Of a stretch of DNA of 64,000 nucleotides, positions 30,192-60,802 are shown one piece after another. Numbering within the stretch: the stretch's first letter is position 1; each line of letters starts with the position of its first letter. The notes beneath the pieces were generated by a model. The model had not been told where the DNA came from, ran no database searches, and saw only the letters and a program-made list of their open reading frames with translations. The position numbers and the translations under genes were made by a program. The stretch is from the NCBI GenBank assembly GCA_944381375.1, contig CALWKX010000037.1:1-64000 (forward strand), in the 5' to 3' direction. Origin of the DNA: an uncultured Lachnospiraceae bacterium. GTDB taxonomy: Bacteria; Bacillota; Clostridia; Eubacteriales; Anaerofustaceae.

Positions 30192-30995
30192 ATGATCATT
30201 ATAGGTGAAAAAATCAACGGCAGTATACCGTCCGTAGCTAAAGCTATAGCCGAAAAAGACGCAGACTTCATAAAAAATCTTGCGATAGCTCAAACACAGG
30301 CTGGCGCAACATATATTGACGTATGCGCGTCTGTTGAAGACAGTATCGAATTGGAAGTCATGAAATGGCTGATAGACTTAGTTCAGCAAGTAAGCGACCT
30401 TCCCATAGCAGTGGACAGCCCTAACGCAAAAACATGCGTCGAGGCTATGGCTTATTGTAATAAGCCGGGATTAATTAACTCAGTATCCGGAGAAGGCGAT
30501 AAGATGGATATTGTATTTCCTAAAATCGCTGAGACAAAATGGGATGTGGTAGCGCTTCTTAACGGAAATAAAGGCATACCGAAAACGGCGGCAGACAGAC
30601 TTGAAGTATTTAATGAAATCATGGATAAGGCAAAGCAATACAACATTGCGCCAGAAAGATTCCACATAGATCCGTTGGTGGAAATGCTTTGCACCGCAGA
30701 AGACGGAATTTCTGTAGTAAACGAAGTTATTTCCACAATAAAGAAAGAATATCCTACAATACACATAACAGGTGCAATAAGCAATATATCATTTAATCTT
30801 CCTGTAAGAAAGCTAGTAAATCAGGCATTTTTAGTTCTCGCTATGAATGCAGGTTTGGACAGCGCCATATTAGATCCGCTTAACAGAGATATGATGGGCA
30901 TGATGTATGCAACTGAAGCTTGTTTGGGAAAAGATTATTACTGTATCAACTATATTACTGCTTACAGGGAAAATAAATTCGGCCCTGTTAAATAA
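30192..30995 (+). CDS. Methyltetrahydrofolate:corrinoid methyltransferase (MTII)
   Basis: A 267-residue pterin-binding TIM barrel of the dihydropteroate-synthase superfamily (AcsE/MtgA-like). It should exchange a methyl group between the corrinoid protein encoded two genes downstream and tetrahydrofolate. Landmarks are IIGEKINGSIPSV at the start, GATYIDVCAS, the AVDSPN pterin-site strand and SNISFNLP. The ribosome site is ACGGAGG. It heads a three-gene operon with a UroD-type methyltransferase and a corrinoid protein, the standard MTII-MTI-CP make-up of acetogen-type demethylation systems. The direction in vivo (onto or off THF) cannot be told from sequence. Confidence 0.88.
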   Translation: MIIIGEKINGSIPSVAKAIAEKDADFIKNLAIAQTQAGATYIDVCASVEDSIELEVMKWLIDLVQQVSDLPIAVDSPNAKTCVEAMAYCNKPGLINSVSGEGDKMDIVFPKIAETKWDVVALLNGNKGIPKTAADRLEVFNEIMDKAKQYNIAPERFHIDPLVEMLCTAEDGISVVNEVISTIKKEYPTIHITGAISNISFNLPVRKLVNQAFLVLAMNAGLDSAILDPLNRDMMGMMYATEACLGKDYYCINYITAYRENKFGPVK

Positions 30996-31024
30996 CTCAC
31001 ATTTCTATATTCAAGGAGGAAATA

Positions 31025-32296
31025 ATGCCTGCTAATTTATCACAGAAGGAAGTAGAGCGACTTCAATCATTAGGACGTCAGATAAGAGAAATAGCGGAAC
31101 TTGACATACAAGAAGAAAACCGCAAACTATGGCGCGCCGTTAATGACGGAAAAATGATCCGTCCTGTTATTCTTGCAAGAGATTATCCTGTCGTATTGCT
31201 GAGAGAAGGACCCGACAAGATAGATCCGATCATTGAAGATCCTTATTGGAGACGTAAAGAAATGGAGATGCTTCTCACGATATATGAATGGAATCATCTT
31301 CGTTGCGACAGAATCGTAGAGCCATATATAAATGTACAGGCCGTAATTAACGATACCAATGTTGGCCTCAGAATGTCCAGCTATCCGGCGCAATGGACAG
31401 AAAAAGCCGAAGATCTTGCACATTCTTATACATTCGAAAGAGTATTGTTCAACGAACAGGATGTTGAAGAAAAAATAAAAATGCCTGTTGTTACTTATGA
31501 TAAGGAAGCCACGATGGAACGCTATGAACAAATGTGTGAAATCATGGACGGTATTATTGACGTTAAGATTTTCGGAATTCAAAACTTCCGTTTTGCTATG
31601 TTTGACGACATATTTGCATGGACAACAATAAATCAGGGAATGATGGATTTAGTAATGAATCCGGATTATTTACATGCTGCAGCTGACAGATATGTAAAAT
31701 GTTTTATCCACAGAGCGAAGCAATATGAAGAGCTTGGATTATTAAGCTCCAACAACGATAGCAGCCTTATAGGAAACGGAGGCTACGGTTACAGCAATGA
31801 ACTTGCTCCTCCGACAGAAAGCGGCATCGGCGCTAAACTCAAAGATAACTGGGGAGTTACTCAGGATCAAATCCTAACGTCTGTATCTCCTGCTATGTCC
31901 AAAGAATTTTCATTCGACCACGCAGTACCGTGGACAGAACTTTTCGCAAGAACATATCACGGATGCTGCGAACGTCTCGACCATAAAGTAAAAGAATTGG
32001 GAACGTTTAAAAAGCTTAAAAAATTCTCCGTTTCTCCTTTTGCAAAATGTCAGGAAGCAATGGAAAAGATGGGAACAAAGTATGTTGTTTCATTTAAACC
32101 GAATTCTACATATCTCAACCTCGATCCTCCCGCATTCGATTTGCTGAAAGAAGAATTGATCAATGTATGCAAATGGGCTCGTGAATATAACAACAGCGTA
32201 GAAATCATTATGAAAACTATTATAACGCTTAATCATGAACCTCAGCGTTTATGGAAATGGTGCGACCTTGCTGCTGATATCGTTCAGAACTACTAA
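31025..32296 (+). CDS. Uroporphyrinogen-decarboxylase-family methyltransferase (probable MTI)
   Basis: A 423-residue protein of the UroD/cobalamin-dependent methyltransferase superfamily. It probably moves a methyl group from an unknown donor to the corrinoid protein. H312-x-C314, with a later cysteine (C382 or C342), resembles the H-x-C...C zinc site of MtaA/MtbA enzymes; this pairing is my inference. It is longer than MtaA/MtbA (about 340) and not of the MttB/pyrrolysine type. Aryl methyl ethers, methylated amines or other methyl donors are all possible. The ribosome site is AAGGAGG. It lies between the MTII and corrinoid genes with short gaps (29 and 33 bases). No transporter or reductive activator is adjacent. 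Confidence 0.83.
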   Translation: MPANLSQKEVERLQSLGRQIREIAELDIQEENRKLWRAVNDGKMIRPVILARDYPVVLLREGPDKIDPIIEDPYWRRKEMEMLLTIYEWNHLRCDRIVEPYINVQAVINDTNVGLRMSSYPAQWTEKAEDLAHSYTFERVLFNEQDVEEKIKMPVVTYDKEATMERYEQMCEIMDGIIDVKIFGIQNFRFAMFDDIFAWTTINQGMMDLVMNPDYLHAAADRYVKCFIHRAKQYEELGLLSSNNDSSLIGNGGYGYSNELAPPTESGIGAKLKDNWGVTQDQILTSVSPAMSKEFSFDHAVPWTELFARTYHGCCERLDHKVKELGTFKKLKKFSVSPFAKCQEAMEKMGTKYVVSFKPNSTYLNLDPPAFDLLKEELINVCKWAREYNNSVEIIMKTIITLNHEPQRLWKWCDLAADIVQNY

Positions 32297-32329
32297 TATA
32301 ATTTCAAATTAATAAGGAGAAAACATAAT

Positions 32330-32965
32330 ATGTCAAAAATAGAAGAATTGGCACAGGCTATTGAATACGGTAAATTAAAAGAAGTTCCTGATTTGGTAAA
32401 TGCCGCTTTAGAGGAAGGTAATGAACCTATTGAAATACTCAACAAAGGCATGGTTGATGCAATGAGTATCGTTGGGGATAAATTCATGAAGAATGAAATA
32501 TTCGTACCTGAAATGCTCATAGCTGCACGCGCAATGCAAGCCGGAGTAGAAGTACTTAAACCAAAGCTTGCCGGAGAAGCAGGCGCTACAATAGGCAAAT
32601 GTATTATAGGCACTGTTGCCGGAGATCTGCACGATATAGGCAAAAATTTGGTTGGCATGATGATCGAAAGCACGGGAATTGAAGTTATTGATCTTGGAGT
32701 AGATGTTACCTCCGATAAATTTATAGAAACCATAAAAGCAAATCCTGATTGCAACATCGTTGCTCTTTCCGCACTGCTTACAACGACGCTGGAAGCTTTA
32801 AAAGGCACAATAGTAGCCATAAAAGAAGCCGGACTTCGTGACAAAGTCAAGATCATGGTAGGAGGAGCTCCTGTAACCCAAGCTTTTGCTGATGAAGTCG
32901 GAGCTGATGGATATGCAAAAGATGCAGCCGGAGCCGCTTTGGTTGCTAAAGATTTAATAGCATAG
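32330..32965 (+). CDS. Corrinoid (B12-binding) methyl-carrier protein
   Basis: A 211-residue carrier of the MtaC/MtbC/MtvC type that shuttles the methyl group between the two methyltransferases. The N-terminal helical cap (about 1-85) precedes a Rossmann B12-binding domain with the base-off motif D99-L-H101-D-I-G104, then S-A-L (148-150) and GGAPVT (179-184). The ribosome site is AAGGAG. It is last in the operon, followed by a strong terminator. Function is secure at family level. Confidence 0.93.
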   Translation: MSKIEELAQAIEYGKLKEVPDLVNAALEEGNEPIEILNKGMVDAMSIVGDKFMKNEIFVPEMLIAARAMQAGVEVLKPKLAGEAGATIGKCIIGTVAGDLHDIGKNLVGMMIESTGIEVIDLGVDVTSDKFIETIKANPDCNIVALSALLTTTLEALKGTIVAIKEAGLRDKVKIMVGGAPVTQAFADEVGADGYAKDAAGAALVAKDLIA

Positions 32966-32978
32966 TTTCAATATGAAT

Positions 32979-33014
32979 AAAAAAAGCAGATATCTAAGAT
33001 ATCTGCTTTTTTTT
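32979..33014. terminator. Bidirectional terminator between the corrinoid gene and ferritin
   Basis: A GCAGATATCT/AGATATCTGC inverted repeat flanked by an A-run on the left and eight Ts on the right; it serves both convergent units. Confidence 0.85.
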
Positions 33015-33026
33015 CATTTGATCGTA

Positions 33027-33536
33027 TTAAAGCGTAAGTGACGGCGCTGAATAAGTTCTTGCTCCAAGCTCACTGTTAAGCATATACAAGGCCTTTGCAT
33101 CTTCACCGAAAAGCTCCATTTTTGTTATTAAATCATTAGTATTCTTTTCCTCTTCGCCCTGTTCTTCTATAAACCAATCCAAGAACTGAGTTGTACGGTA
33201 ATCATTGACTGATTGCGCAGCTGCATATATATTATTGATTAAAGACGTAACATATTGTTCATGTTCCATCGCTGCTTGTAAAGGTTCATCGATTTTTTTG
33301 TATGTTTTATCCGGCTTAGCAATAGCCTCCAATGTAACCTGTTGATTATTATTATGAAGATATCTATATATCAGCATTGCATGATCCTGTTCTTCCTTTG
33401 CCTGAATTTCGAACCAATTTGAAAATCCGTCTAACCCTTTTGAAGCATAATAATTTGCCATATCTAAATAAAGATATGCTGAATATAATTCTTTATTGAT
33501 CTGTTCATTGAGTAAGTTAGATACTTTCTTATCCAT
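33027..33536 (-). CDS. Ferritin
   Basis: A 169-residue non-haem ferritin that oxidises and stores iron. The four-helix bundle and ferroxidase residues are visible: the first-helix glutamate in NKELYSAYLYLDM, EIQAKEEQDHAM in the second helix, and FIEEQGEEE in the fourth. The start at 33536 follows GGAGG; an upstream extension is rejected. It has a consensus TTGACA-16-TATAAT promoter whose -35 lies inside a small inverted repeat. A single-gene unit. Confidence 0.95.
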   Translation of the reverse strand: MDKKVSNLLNEQINKELYSAYLYLDMANYYASKGLDGFSNWFEIQAKEEQDHAMLIYRYLHNNNQQVTLEAIAKPDKTYKKIDEPLQAAMEHEQYVTSLINNIYAAAQSVNDYRTTQFLDWFIEEQGEEEKNTNDLITKMELFGEDAKALYMLNSELGARTYSAPSLTL

Positions 33537-33590
33537 ATAATATTCGCCTCCTGAAATACAGCGCATTTTAACAGCACGCGCTTTTGGTTA

Positions 33591-33618
33591 ATTATAACAT
33601 ATTGCATTAACTTGTCAA
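33591..33618 (-). promoter_or_regulatory. Ferritin promoter with overlapping dyad
   Basis: TTGACA and TATAAT 16 bases apart on the minus strand. The -35 sits within CATTAA-(8)-TTAATG (33605-33624), a possible repressor site. It is not a PerR or Fur consensus box. Confidence 0.75.
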
Positions 33619-33677
33619 TTAATGGAATAAGTGTAAAATGTCAACATATACTTTCATGCCTGTAATACCAATCGTTC

Positions 33678-34220
33678 TTACGCTAAGTCAATAAGTACGC
33701 AAGCTACATATGTGAGCGTGTTTTTTCCGTAATAATACGGCAATCCGTTAGCTTTGCATACATCGCTTACTAACATACCGAACGCCTCCATAGATGAAAT
33801 CAATAATTCTGGGAAGCGGCATTCTTTATCAGGATATGTACATTCTTTACAAATTTTACAACCGCCGGCTCCAAGCAACAACGCATGAGGACAGATACGT
33901 TTTATTTCAATATTGAATTTCTTTACAGCACTTTCGTGCTTTTCTGAGGCATCCTGCATGCCTTCCGCATCAAAAGGTCCATCAAGATATCCTGTGGTTT
34001 GTAAAATGTATCCTTTTGTATATTTCTTAAGCTTTTTTTCACATTCTTCAAGAGTACCGCAAGCCGGAGGACAAGACCAATTCTTATTATACGCCCCGCA
34101 CCTGTTTTCTTTGCAAGTGTCTCTTACTTCACGGCGAAGATTTATAGTTTCTGTACTAAGTTCACCAACTGTAGTAAATCCACATTCATGCGCTAATTTT
34201 TCTATTTCTTTTTTGTGCAT
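33678..34220 (-). CDS. Cysteine-rich DUF2284 protein
   Basis: A 180-residue protein of the DUF2284 family, predicted to bind metal. Eleven cysteines lie in two clusters: C-x4-C-x8-C-x3-C (CKENRC, SCPPAC) near residues 37-55, and CPHALLLGAGGCKICKEC near 110-128. The spacing suggests zinc or an iron-sulfur centre. No function is established to my knowledge. The start at 34220 has CAGGAG ahead; six upstream codons are rejected. It stands alone between ferritin and the divergent MFS gene. Confidence 0.82.
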   Translation of the reverse strand: MHKKEIEKLAHECGFTTVGELSTETINLRREVRDTCKENRCGAYNKNWSCPPACGTLEECEKKLKKYTKGYILQTTGYLDGPFDAEGMQDASEKHESAVKKFNIEIKRICPHALLLGAGGCKICKECTYPDKECRFPELLISSMEAFGMLVSDVCKANGLPYYYGKNTLTYVACVLIDLA

Positions 34221-34341
34221 AATTTTCTCCTGATTCATTATAACAGATTATTTAGATAATTAGGCTTTTATTGTTATTTTTTTCTTTTCAAAACCTATCG
34301 CTACATGTTAAAATATAAACATAAACAAAAAAGGAAAATCT

Positions 34342-57832: not shown

Positions 57833-58378
57833 TTAATTTAAAATGAATATTAATGGAATATCTTGCAAAACATATTCATCTTCGCCGAAGTAAACATGAA
57901 CATTAAAGTTTGAAATATTTTTTTTAAAAAAAGGATCAAATCGCGCATATAACTGCTTTTTATAATTCAGAGACTCATTTTCGTTATAAGGATAATCTCT
58001 TAATTCTTGATAATACGGCGAAATTTTTTCACCGTCATATTCCAGAACGCAATAAGCTGCACCTTCCAAATCGCTTTTGTCTAAAGTTTCTATATTGATC
58101 AATATATCAAAACTGCTTTGGTCATCCGTAACCCATGAATACTTGATAAAATACCTGATTATATCGAATTTTTCTATATCAATTCTAATATTGCCTCTAA
58201 CAACGGCATACTCTGATTTACCATATTCCTGCCTTATTAATTCGTCAAAATTTGGCGGAAGCTGACTGTTTACGGTTAAGCTTACAGTATTTATCTTGTG
58301 GTAAATGAAACAAAACAGAGATACAAACAACAAAAATATATTAACAATAAAAAATATTAATAACTTCTTCTTTTTCAT
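57833..58378 (-). CDS. Unknown N-terminally anchored protein
   Basis: I do not recognise this 181-residue protein. A basic start (MKKKK) and one long hydrophobic segment (about 6-27) look like a membrane anchor or uncleaved signal; no lipobox cysteine is placed for lipoprotein processing. The rest (about 28-181) is a mixed, acidic, beta-rich domain without known motif, presumably outside the cell. It is upstream of tmk on the same strand. The ribosome site is poor. Confidence 0.65.
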   Translation of the reverse strand: MKKKKLLIFFIVNIFLLFVSLFCFIYHKINTVSLTVNSQLPPNFDELIRQEYGKSEYAVVRGNIRIDIEKFDIIRYFIKYSWVTDDQSSFDILINIETLDKSDLEGAAYCVLEYDGEKISPYYQELRDYPYNENESLNYKKQLYARFDPFFKKNISNFNVHVYFGEDEYVLQDIPLIFILN

Positions 58379-58457
58379 ATTACATCATATGAATTATGAA
58401 ATTTTTTAATGCTTTTTTAGTTTACAACTCGATCCTTTGTCAATAATAAATATCAAG

Positions 58458-58613
58458 ATGAGTATATCAGTGATAAATCATATCAACGGGAAAATAAGCG
58501 ATCCTAAAGAAGTTTCAATCAAAAGTGAATCATTGTATAGGATTATAAATAGGGCGGTTTTAACATCCTTGTCAAACAATAACGATGCGCTTAACAAGGA
58601 GATAAAAGTTTGA
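58458..58613 (+). CDS. 51-codon ORF overlapping the recombinase start
   Basis: An ATG-initiated frame of 51 codons (MSISVINHING at the start, ALNKEIKV at the end), whose TGA overlaps the recombinase TTG start by two bases (TTGA). No strong ribosome site precedes it. The composition is polar and helical-looking, with no known domain. The exact stop/start overlap argues for a real small gene coupled to the recombinase; it could also be chance. Confidence 0.45.
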   Translation: MSISVINHINGKISDPKEVSIKSESLYRIINRAVLTSLSNNNDALNKEIKV

Positions 58614-59965
58614 AAGCTGCTTTATACGCACGTGTCTCTACTGATATGCAAAATGAAGGATATTCTATAGACGCTCAAAAAGAATTGCTGAAAAAATACT
58701 GCGAAGTAAAGCAAATCAAAGATTATGATTATTACGTAGACGGCGGCTATTCCGGCAGTAACATCAACCGGCCAATGCTTACTAAGCTCATACAAGACTG
58801 CAAAAATAAAAAAGTTAATATTGTTATCGTTTATAAACTTGACAGACTGTCAAGAAGTCAAAAGGATACATTATATTTGATCGAAGAAGTATTCATTCCA
58901 AACGGAGTGGATTTTATTTCTATCAGCGAAAATTTTGACACCACTACTGCTTACGGGAAAGCAATGATAGGTATTCTTTCCGTTTTTGCACAACTTGAAA
59001 GAGAAACCATAAAAGAAAGAACTCGAATGGGTATGAAAGAACGCATAAAAGGCGGTTATTGGCCTGGCGGAGGAAAGCTTCCTTATGGTTATGACTATGA
59101 TAAAAGCAAAGGCATACTTGTGAAAAACGAACGCGCCGAAAGCGTAAAAAAAATGTTTGAGCTGTATTTAAGCGGATGGTCTGCTGAAAGGATTGCTAAA
59201 TATTTCAATATAAAATACGACAAAATCGTTATGCAAATTTTGAAAAGCAAAATCAACTGCGGGCTTATAGAATATAAAGGAACTGTATATGAAGGACTTC
59301 ATGAACCAATAGTAAGTAAAGAAATATTTGACGAAACTGCCAAGCTTATTCGTCAAAGGAGCAAAAGCAAATTAAAACAAGGATCTTTCCTTTTATCAGG
59401 AATTATTTATTGCGGTAAATGCGGAAGTAAAATGCGATACCAAAAATGGGGTAAAAAAGGATACAAAATTTGCTGCTATTCTCAACAATCGAGCAAAGAA
59501 TATATGATAAAAGACCCGAACTGCCAAAACAAAAAACATTGGGCTTATGAAATTGAAGACGCAGTCCTTGGGCAGCTTTTTGCCTTTTCGTTGAATCCCA
59601 AACAGATAGAAAACAAGAAAGATCATGCTCATCAGTTAAACATCACTGCTATTAAAAAAAATATTGCTGAAGTAAATAAAAAAATCAACAACCTGATAAA
59701 TTTTATCTCAGAAGGGTTAGCTACTGATGAAATAAAAGCTTCATTAATCAAATTAAGCGAACAGAAAAAGGCTCTTGTACAGGAATTAAAAAATATAAAT
59801 TACTATAATGATAAAAATCAACTTTTTTTAGACAAAATAACAAATTTGAACATGGTATGGGACGATCTGTCGTTTGATGAAAAAAAGGCCGTCATACGAC
59901 TTTTGATAGACAAAATTGTGATAACGGATGATAAAGCGGATATATATTACGCATTTGAAAATTAG
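58610..59965 (+). CDS. Large serine recombinase, SpoIVCA-like
   Basis: A 451-residue site-specific recombinase. Domains in order are: resolvase catalytic domain (1-140) with nucleophile S10 in LYARVSTD and YKLDRLSRSQKD; recombinase DNA-binding domain (about 150-250); zinc ribbon with CGKCG and later cysteines (about 268-310); and a C-terminal coiled coil (about 340-420). It starts with TTG, supported by AAGGAG seven bases ahead. Bacillus SpoIVCA of this family excises the skin element from sigK; here the gene ends 135 bases before an intact sigK. No integrase target, attachment repeats or cargo are seen, so its substrate is unknown. Confidence 0.92.
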   Translation: MKAALYARVSTDMQNEGYSIDAQKELLKKYCEVKQIKDYDYYVDGGYSGSNINRPMLTKLIQDCKNKKVNIVIVYKLDRLSRSQKDTLYLIEEVFIPNGVDFISISENFDTTTAYGKAMIGILSVFAQLERETIKERTRMGMKERIKGGYWPGGGKLPYGYDYDKSKGILVKNERAESVKKMFELYLSGWSAERIAKYFNIKYDKIVMQILKSKINCGLIEYKGTVYEGLHEPIVSKEIFDETAKLIRQRSKSKLKQGSFLLSGIIYCGKCGSKMRYQKWGKKGYKICCYSQQSSKEYMIKDPNCQNKKHWAYEIEDAVLGQLFAFSLNPKQIENKKDHAHQLNITAIKKNIAEVNKKINNLINFISEGLATDEIKASLIKLSEQKKALVQELKNINYYNDKNQLFLDKITNLNMVWDDLSFDEKKAVIRLLIDKIVITDDKADIYYAFEN

Positions 59966-60020
59966 GCCGGAATGTTTCTAATATGCGTTTTTATATAACT
60001 AAATAATAATTTCAATGACA

Positions 60021-60030
60021 TAAGACAAAT
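60021..60030 (+). promoter_or_regulatory. SpoIIID-like box upstream of sigK
   Basis: TAAGACAAAT fits the Bacillus SpoIIID consensus WWRRACARNY at every position. It is 40 bases before the -10-like element of sigK. A single match to a degenerate site in AT-rich DNA can occur by chance. Confidence 0.4.
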
Positions 60031-60069
60031 TTAATATTATTTCCGTAATTATGATTTGGCTTCAACTTT

Positions 60070-60077
60070 CATATAAT
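60070..60077 (+). promoter_or_regulatory. Sigma-E-like -10 element of sigK
   Basis: CATATAAT resembles the mother-cell sigma-E/K -10 consensus (CATACAnT / CATAnnnT). No sigma-A -35 lies 16-18 bases upstream of the contained TATAAT, and the -35 match for sigma-E is weak. Confidence 0.45.
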
Positions 60078-60100
60078 GTAGAAGCGTTGAGGAGGGGCGA

Positions 60101-60802
60101 ATGGTATTTAATTTTTATGATGTATTATCCCTGCTGCAGGATGTATTTTTCTTTTTAGGCTACTTTTCCGGCAGTAATTCTTTCGAAGAAAAGTTGTCTA
60201 TGGAAGAAGAAGCAAAATATATACGCTTAATGAGTGAAAAAAATGATCAAGACGCAAAAAGAAAACTAATAATACACAACTTGAGACTTGTAGCCCATGT
60301 AAGCAAAAAATATGCATCATGCAGCATATCACAAGAAGATCTTTTGTCGATAGGCACTATAGGATTAATCAAAGGCGTCAATACATATAAACCCGAAAAA
60401 GCTACAAAGTTTGCCAGTTATGTAGCAAAATGCATTGATAATGAGATACTTATGGCAATAAGAAACGAAAACAAACTCAGTATGAATGTATATTTGGAAG
60501 ACATTATAGGGGCTGACGAAGAAGGTAACAGCGTAACGTTAATAGAAGTCGTAGGATGTGAAGACGATATATCACAAAAAGTAGATTTAGCTGTGGAAAG
60601 CGTAAAGCTCAAAAATTATATTGAAATGTCATTAACACCGCGTGAGCGTATTATCATAAAAATGCGTTATGGGCTCGATAATCACAAAAAGTACACTCAA
60701 ATTGAAATCGCGCAACTTTTAAATATTTCAAGATCATATGTATCAAGAATTGAAAAAAAAGCTATAGAAAAACTTGCAGCCGAATTTCAAAAAATAGTAT
60801 AA
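60101..60802 (+). CDS. sigK: Sporulation sigma factor K precursor (pro-sigma-K)
   Basis: A 233-residue late mother-cell sigma factor. The first 20 residues are hydrophobic (MVFNFYDVLSLLQDVFFFLG) and correspond to the pro-sequence of Bacillus sigma-K, with cleavage expected at G20-Y21. Region 2 (HNLRLVAHVSKKY, ISQEDLLSIGTIGLIKG) and region 4 with its helix-turn-helix (YTQIEIAQLLNISRSYVSRIEKKA) are uninterrupted, so there is no skin-type insertion. The ribosome site is GAGGAGG. A SpoIIID-like box and a sigma-E-like -10 lie upstream. It implies that the organism sporulates or did so recently. Confidence 0.93.
   Translation: MVFNFYDVLSLLQDVFFFLGYFSGSNSFEEKLSMEEEAKYIRLMSEKNDQDAKRKLIIHNLRLVAHVSKKYASCSISQEDLLSIGTIGLIKGVNTYKPEKATKFASYVAKCIDNEILMAIRNENKLSMNVYLEDIIGADEEGNSVTLIEVVGCEDDISQKVDLAVESVKLKNYIEMSLTPRERIIIKMRYGLDNHKKYTQIEIAQLLNISRSYVSRIEKKAIEKLAAEFQKIV

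Follow-up and report, generated by a model that had tools for sequence, protein, structure and literature searches.

A large serine recombinase beside sigK that very probably belongs to a phage-derived system splitting sigG in Clostridia

Introduction

A gene for a large serine recombinase that stands directly in front of an intact sporulation sigma factor gene raises the question of which DNA the enzyme acts on. Such a pair is found in the window, the whole 64,000-nucleotide stretch of DNA analysed here, which comes from contig C37 of the draft genome of an uncultured Lachnospiraceae bacterium (G000; 1.54 Mb in 38 contigs). SigG is the sigma factor of the forespore, where it switches on the late forespore program, and SigK is the sigma factor of the mother cell. 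A first-pass annotation of this DNA had proposed either that the recombinase is a relic of an element lost from sigK or that it has another target. The second proposal is the one that the comparative evidence supports: the most likely target is a split sigG and not sigK. The recombinase very probably belongs to a domesticated, phage-derived system that interrupts sigG and rejoins its halves for sporulation. Published papers are cited by PMC number.

The recombinase and its neighbors in the window

The first-pass annotation placed the recombinase directly in front of an uninterrupted sigK, and this arrangement is confirmed, with 135 bp between the recombinase stop codon and sigK. It had also begun the recombinase at 58458, where a separate 51-aa ORF starts; the recombinase itself begins at 58610, and the end of the small ORF overlaps its start by 4 nt (Table 1). 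The protein contains the Resolvase, Recombinase, and Zn-ribbon domains (Pfam) of large serine recombinases, with the catalytic serine in the Resolvase N-domain and a coiled coil made of two long helices (residues 340–367 and 373–410) in the model. This AlphaFold2 model has a pLDDT of 85.7, and its top PDB matches are serine integrases. Ser10, invariant across 36 aligned rows, is the expected nucleophile, and the PHROG 95 integrase family matches the recombinase with 427 bits. The earlier label "SpoIVCA-like" is correct only in the sense that both are large serine recombinases. Genome-wide, G000 has a single good match to this recombinase and one weak relative (25%).

Table 1. Positions of the features discussed (window coordinates unless another sequence is named)
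Feature	Sequence	Position	Strand	Remarks
Large serine recombinase	Window	58610-59965	+	451 aa, TTG start; Pfam domains
Small ORF	Window	58458-58613	+	51 aa, in front of recombinase; candidate recombination directionality factor (RDF)
sigK	Window	60101-60802	+	233 aa, intact; neighbor, outside the recombinase system
181-aa ORF	Window	57833-58378	-	Upstream of the small ORF and recombinase module
Cluster resembling corrinoid-dependent methyltransferase genes	Window	30192-34238		Named by eye
Core at break of sigG N-half	C27	24620-24632
Core at break of sigG C-half	C26	14910-14922
Two tyrosine-recombinase genes	C26	About 9.2-11.1 kb (L204:3184-5135)		Phage_integrase
MTRK-start gene	L463	3813-4370
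MTRK-start gene	L464	1916-2533
MTRK-start gene	L381	3481-4080
MTRK-start gene	L383	7346-8086
Other serine integrase with CC-centered palindrome behind it	L408	About 7426		Phage contig

The 51-aa ORF has no match in Pfam or NCBIfam. Small ORFs of one family (M.I.RY.NG..) precede the recombinase at 64 of 88 loci, as against 1 of 73 control large-serine-recombinase loci, when scored at E<0.01 with an HMM whose training set came from some of these loci; the ORF of the window matches this HMM weakly (E 0.012). Its position and conservation make the small ORF a candidate RDF. The 181-aa ORF upstream has no Pfam match and no convincing NCBIfam match. Elsewhere in the window lies a cluster of genes that resemble those for corrinoid-dependent methyltransferases.

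A sigG gene broken at one codon

Orthologues of the recombinase are present at 80 loci in named genomes (identity 42%–60%), including again the closest family orthologues, those of G009, G010, and G012 (58%–60% identity; 13 family genomes searched). The gene downstream of the recombinase was first revealed by conserved-neighbor clustering of these 80 loci, in a cluster that had also taken in antisense ORFs and carried a misleading label, and was identified by reading the ORFs. The fragments behind the recombinase are the N-terminal half of a sporulation sigma factor whose last residues are FSTYAVPM. A sigG half lies within 500 bp of the recombinase end at 49 of the 80 loci, with the same break codon: at 15 loci it is the N-half behind the recombinase on the opposite strand (convergent), and at 34 it is the C-half on the same strand. 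A half is found further off at 8 loci and is absent from the fetched flank at 23. The break falls between the codons VPM|IIGE in all 52 genomes for which both breaks were fetched.

The sigG of G000 consists of two halves only, one on contig C27 and the other on C26 (Table 1), and the recombinase is detached from both. The intact sigG of G005 sits between argS-ddl and dacF-spo0A-spoIVB-recN (argS, ddl, spo0A, and spoIVB named by search, dacF and recN by eye). Since the N-half of G000 adjoins argS-ddl and the C-half adjoins the dacF-spo0A-spoIVB-recN side, one gene has been broken in place.

Within the family (13 genomes, NCBIfam sigG model), sigG is intact in five genomes (G001, G002, G003, G005, and G011), consists of two halves in four (G000, G009, G010, and G012), and has no match of sigG length in the remaining four. 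Split sigG and recombinase coincide exactly: the four split genomes have both, and the five with an intact sigG lack the recombinase. Among 69 further recombinase genomes searched, with 7 of the 80 loci and L121 left out, sigG is split in 66 and neither half reaches the cut-off in 2. The last, G090, counts against the association: its recombinase belongs to the sigG-type clade, yet its sigG is full-length and halves are absent. G114 and G131, which belong to the 66, have a full-length sigG copy besides the halves and may be mixed bins. One further contig, L096 (JAISZW010000141.1), comes from a bin named for the archaeon Candidatus Methanovirga and carries a clostridial-type recombinase with a sigG C-half; it is probably a contaminating contig.

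An even draw of 393 genomes from the class contained eight with a recombinase of at least 668 bits, and all eight have half-length sigG only; these carriers overlap with the other sets, three being family genomes and five coinciding in coordinates with genomes searched earlier. The next seven recombinases score 377–407 bits, and sigG is intact in five of these genomes and without a match at the cut-off in two. Including those five, 280 non-carriers score sigG above any half seen. Six non-carriers with a weak sigG score were checked, of which five had SigF-like full-length matches and one a contig-end fragment. G360, with a C-terminal sigG fragment (residues 103–254) and no recombinase, was set aside, as the fetched locus is 1956 bases long, which places the end of the contig at the edge of the fragment.

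Attachment half-sites at the two breaks

At one break the left sigG half is followed by an outer arm, and at the other an outer arm is followed by the right half (n = 52; the set excludes genomes such as G111, G121, and G131, for which the second half was missing or not fetched). The CC dinucleotide in the Pro codon of VPM is common to both breaks in all 52 genomes. Within a genome, the outer arms form a palindrome with complementary bases at 16.8 of 24 positions, versus 12.5 between genomes, and none of 20,000 permutations gave a value as high. A non-redundant set of 16 genomes gives 16.75 versus 12.72, again with none of 20,000 permutations reaching it, and in G106 arms about 14.7 kb apart match at 20 of 24 positions. 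Joining the halves at CC yields an open frame and restores P-M in all 52 genomes; by themselves, 42 of the N-halves encode P-M and 10 have lost the Met codon. Genome-wide, the core motif occurs twice in G000, exactly at the two breaks. Judged by sequence, the sigG breaks are the attL and attR half-sites of a palindromic attP. The assembled genomes thus hold a sporulation gene interrupted at a precise point, together with a site-specific recombinase, and the two breaks carry attL and attR. The joined state was not seen, as there is no intact attP beside the recombinase at any of the 80 bacterial loci. A lone attP-like match among these loci, in L122, is terminator-like and far from the recombinase, and it was rejected.

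Phage relatives of the recombinase

Four IMG/VR contigs of 63–147 kb (L379, L381, L382, and L383) encode the recombinase at 43%–51% identity, each with an intact attP (17–23 of 24 positions) within about 100 bp behind it. Genes for anaerobic ribonucleotide reductase, dUTPase, or endolysin lie in the flanks of L379, L382, and L383. A scan of all viral contigs for the att pattern found six places: the four known ones (the fourth as L472, whose fetched piece is the attP side of L382 only), one in L474 beside a 38% relative of the recombinase, and one in L475, where no recombinase relative was found. Annotated phage integrases are at most 39% identical to the recombinase, save that of MT839977.1 (48%). 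This 5.9-kb record, labeled "Bacteriophage sp." (L378), is taken for a bacterial or prophage junction because its sigG-type recombinase is directly followed by a sigG C-half.

In phages and bacterial elements, a gene of about 185–246 aa with an MTRK start lies across attP from the recombinase (Table 1). G077 and G106 have homologues of it inside their elements, others have them beside the breaks, and one such gene has a weak HNH-repeat match.

In a tree built by a quick method after dropping 16 Butyricicoccaceae rows, 72 sigG-type recombinases group together, except that the long-branch outgroup row L408 joins them. Phage recombinases branch among the bacterial ones at four separate points, and the recombinase of the window and its three orthologues from the family form a supported clade. 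Monophyly of the sigG-type recombinases is supported by this tree, though not proven. The phage contig L408 carries a different serine integrase with a CC-centered palindrome of its own directly behind it. The recombinase system is most likely a domesticated phage-derived element in sigG.

A model for the rejoining of sigG

The ancestral phage would have integrated at the V-P-M codons of sigG. By analogy with known systems, we infer that recombination takes place in sporulating cells, where the recombinase and the small ORF, as its RDF, would join attL with the N-half to attR with the C-half at CC. The products would be attB, which is the intact sigG, and attP. Joining would be timed to the forespore and reversed after germination. 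The recombinase alone could run attP × attB back to the split state, by the precedent of its enzyme family: the recombinase of the Clostridioides difficile element skinCd integrates alone, and excision needs its RDF (PMC5025042).

Arrangement of the halves and fate of the intervening DNA

The halves are arranged in different ways. In eight genomes (G071, G072, G074, G075, G077, G106, G119, and G135) they are in direct order and 2.5 to 25 kb apart, and in Ruminococcus, G077, and G106, one contiguous element carries the recombinase between them. In G076 (Hominifimenecus), the halves are on opposite strands, 26 kb apart, so that joining would be an inversion. In A. massiliense (G067), they share a strand of a 3.2-Mb contig but follow each other in reversed order at a distance of 112 kb, and joining would therefore divide a circular chromosome. 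In G000, the halves and the recombinase are on three contigs (C26, C27, and C37) and no small contiguous element was found; the 38-contig draft is compatible with a large one. Because the halves are direct, inverted, or unlinked, joining would excise a few kb in some species, whereas in others it would be an inversion or would split the chromosome.

A further possibility is that the halves are joined by a one-way excision, as in skin, so that the cell using sigma-G would lose the DNA between them. The direct order in eight genomes, as in skin, fits this reading, and the C. difficile skin is a precedent, its excision being confined to the terminal mother cell (PMC5025042). The forespore, where sigma-G acts, is in contrast inherited. 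Moreover, the intervening DNA in Ruminococcus includes host metabolic genes, which encode a nicotinate phosphoribosyltransferase, a beta-mannosidase-like protein, and a transporter of the MFS type, and the inverted and reversed arrangements of G076 and G067 also speak against it. In both G000 and G012, pheS-pheT adjoin attR, an arrangement that probably predates the split of the two genera since both have it; with housekeeping genes adjoining a sigG half, germ-line loss of the intervening DNA is implausible in G000. One-way loss is thus unlikely, although it keeps some weight.

Two tyrosine-recombinase genes lie beside pheST in G000, on the P-arm side of the C-half (Table 1).

For reversible joining of the halves, a wider proposal is offered tentatively. 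The window bacterium and groups such as Agathobaculum may need a reversible programmed rearrangement of the inherited chromosome to make spores, in which the unlinked sigG halves would be joined in the forespore by a large inversion or a transient state of two circles, to be undone after germination.

Translation, selection, and expression

The two halves might instead work together as two polypeptides, without any joining of DNA. Both halves are conserved and open, and two-protein sigma factors exist in B. subtilis. However, a Shine-Dalgarno-like 4-mer precedes the core ATG of the C-half in 1 of 52 genomes (51 lack it), versus 29 of 32 N-half starts. A two-protein sigma factor would also leave the conserved attL and attR arms, the covariation of the arms, and the retained recombinase unexplained, and we consider it improbable.

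A similarly small chance is given to a dead gene, in which phage integration would have inactivated sigG in lineages abandoning sporulation and left the recombinase and the halves behind. Sporulation is doubtful in some carriers, because G000 has no match to a SASP gene and R. albus 7 is listed as a Spo0A+ non-spore-former without several sporulation genes (PMC3533761). The available part of the R. bromii paper PMC5814915 contains nothing on sigG. Against a dead gene, G009 and G012, both with split sigG, carry SASP genes, the att arms are kept, and the frame across the join is open in every genome of the break set. Furthermore, dN/dS is low, at 0.04–0.07 for the sigG halves (dS above 1) and 0.09–0.11 for the recombinases. 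The medians are 0.041 for C-halves and 0.111 for the recombinase in Agathobaculum (13 loci), and 0.066 for N-halves, 0.060 for C-halves, and 0.093 for the recombinase in Ruminococcus (5 or 6 loci).

A sigma-70 scan of window positions 58300–60150 gave 13 matches versus 8.5 ± 2.9 by chance, none of them useful. The sigma-F-like −10 consensus is GGnnAnAHTR. It is found upstream of the small ORF at 41 of 79 loci, versus 11.0 in mononucleotide shuffles and 13 on the antisense strand; outside Butyricicoccaceae the count is 22 of 58, versus a mean of 9.7 and a largest value of 17 in 300 dinucleotide shuffles. Forespore expression of the recombinase is a lead only, because the full −35/−10 pattern occurs at 3 of 79 loci and the window locus is absent from the sigma-F-like matches.

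Relation to sigK

The window sigK scores 265.7 bits against NCBIfam PRK05803 (cut-off 252) and 260.4 bits against TIGR02846, below the cut-off of 298.65, and its N-terminus is still pro-sequence-like. In the family genomes, the best sigK match is one intact gene, and in G009, G010, and G012, sigK and the recombinase are on different contigs, the neighbors of the recombinase being thrS-like or prfA-like genes (named by eye). No SigK-like gene adjoins the recombinase at the 80 other orthologue loci, where the hits of a SigK query were fragments for the most part; a longer one, a 39% match 1.8 kb away in L106, is taken for another sigma factor. No CC-centered palindrome of the att type occurs anywhere in the window. 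The suggestion that the recombinase is controlled in the same compartment as sigK also found no support, with SigG belonging to the forespore and SigK to the mother cell.

The adjacency of recombinase and sigK in the window is accidental. This adjacency, and the restoration of sigK by serine recombinases in other spore formers (PMC5025042), would suit a recombinase that excised an element from sigK and stayed after its loss, but such a relic is highly improbable, given that sigK is intact in the window, that the recombinase is away from sigK in the family and at the 80 other loci, that in both genera tested it evolves under purifying selection, with a dN/dS of about 0.1, and so does not look like a decaying relic, and that its most likely sites of action sit in sigG.

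Comparison with known rearrangements

The skin elements of sigK (B. subtilis, with SpoIVCA; C. difficile skinCd, with CD1231 and its RDF CD1234) resemble the sigG system, as proposed here, in that the serine recombinase of a prophage-like element restores a sporulation sigma gene through attL × attR; they likewise have a small RDF, for which the sigG system has a candidate, and attachment sites with inverted repeats (PMC5025042). Unlike skin, the system described here affects sigG, with its forespore product, rather than the sigK of the terminal mother cell, and the window recombinase is detached from the interrupted gene. Moreover, joining of sigG cannot always be simple excision, because the halves are unlinked, inverted, or reversed in some relatives.

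In Bacillus cereus ATCC 10987, the sporulation gene gerE is similarly split, by the gin element, which is not a phage and bears cargo, and whose recombinase GirC with the extra factor GirX can be likened to the recombinase and small ORF (PMC5595907). It differs in that gerE is a mother-cell gene, the element occurs in some B. cereus and B. toyonensis only and is a single excisable one, and there are three recombinases. SP-beta in spsM and yin in yabG are also phage or prophage-like interruptions of sporulation genes (PMC4191935, PMC10747680), but these genes do not encode sigma factors and the elements are single and contiguous. Among serine integrases with an RDF (SP-beta integrase, phiC31, Bxb1, and LI integrase), the fold is like that predicted for the modeled recombinase, and the attP arms are likewise symmetric about a central dinucleotide. 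Unlike phage serine integrases, the sigG recombinase is mostly a resident gene that has been kept with no phage structural genes next to it.

A search of the open-licence PMC literature, with subscription papers and preprints outside its scope, found no description of a sigG that is split or interrupted by a phage. The sporulation rearrangements found there, in the parts available, concern sigK, gerE, spsM, and yabG, and all are excisions.

Implications for sporulation in Clostridia

If the rejoining of sigG is borne out, sporulation in a large group of gut and rumen Clostridia would depend on a sigma factor gene restored by a recombinase. The rearrangement would fall in the cell that founds the next generation, where DNA cannot simply be discarded. 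Under the tentative reversible reading, this developmental rearrangement would affect the germ line, unlike that of a discarded cell. A split sigG may account for carriers that have been scored as lacking a normal sigG, and the sigG junction could be used as a test for sporulation. Additionally, the findings point to a family of phages whose attachment site is defined and lies within a key sporulation gene, and to serine integrases that form a new set and come with their matching att sites.
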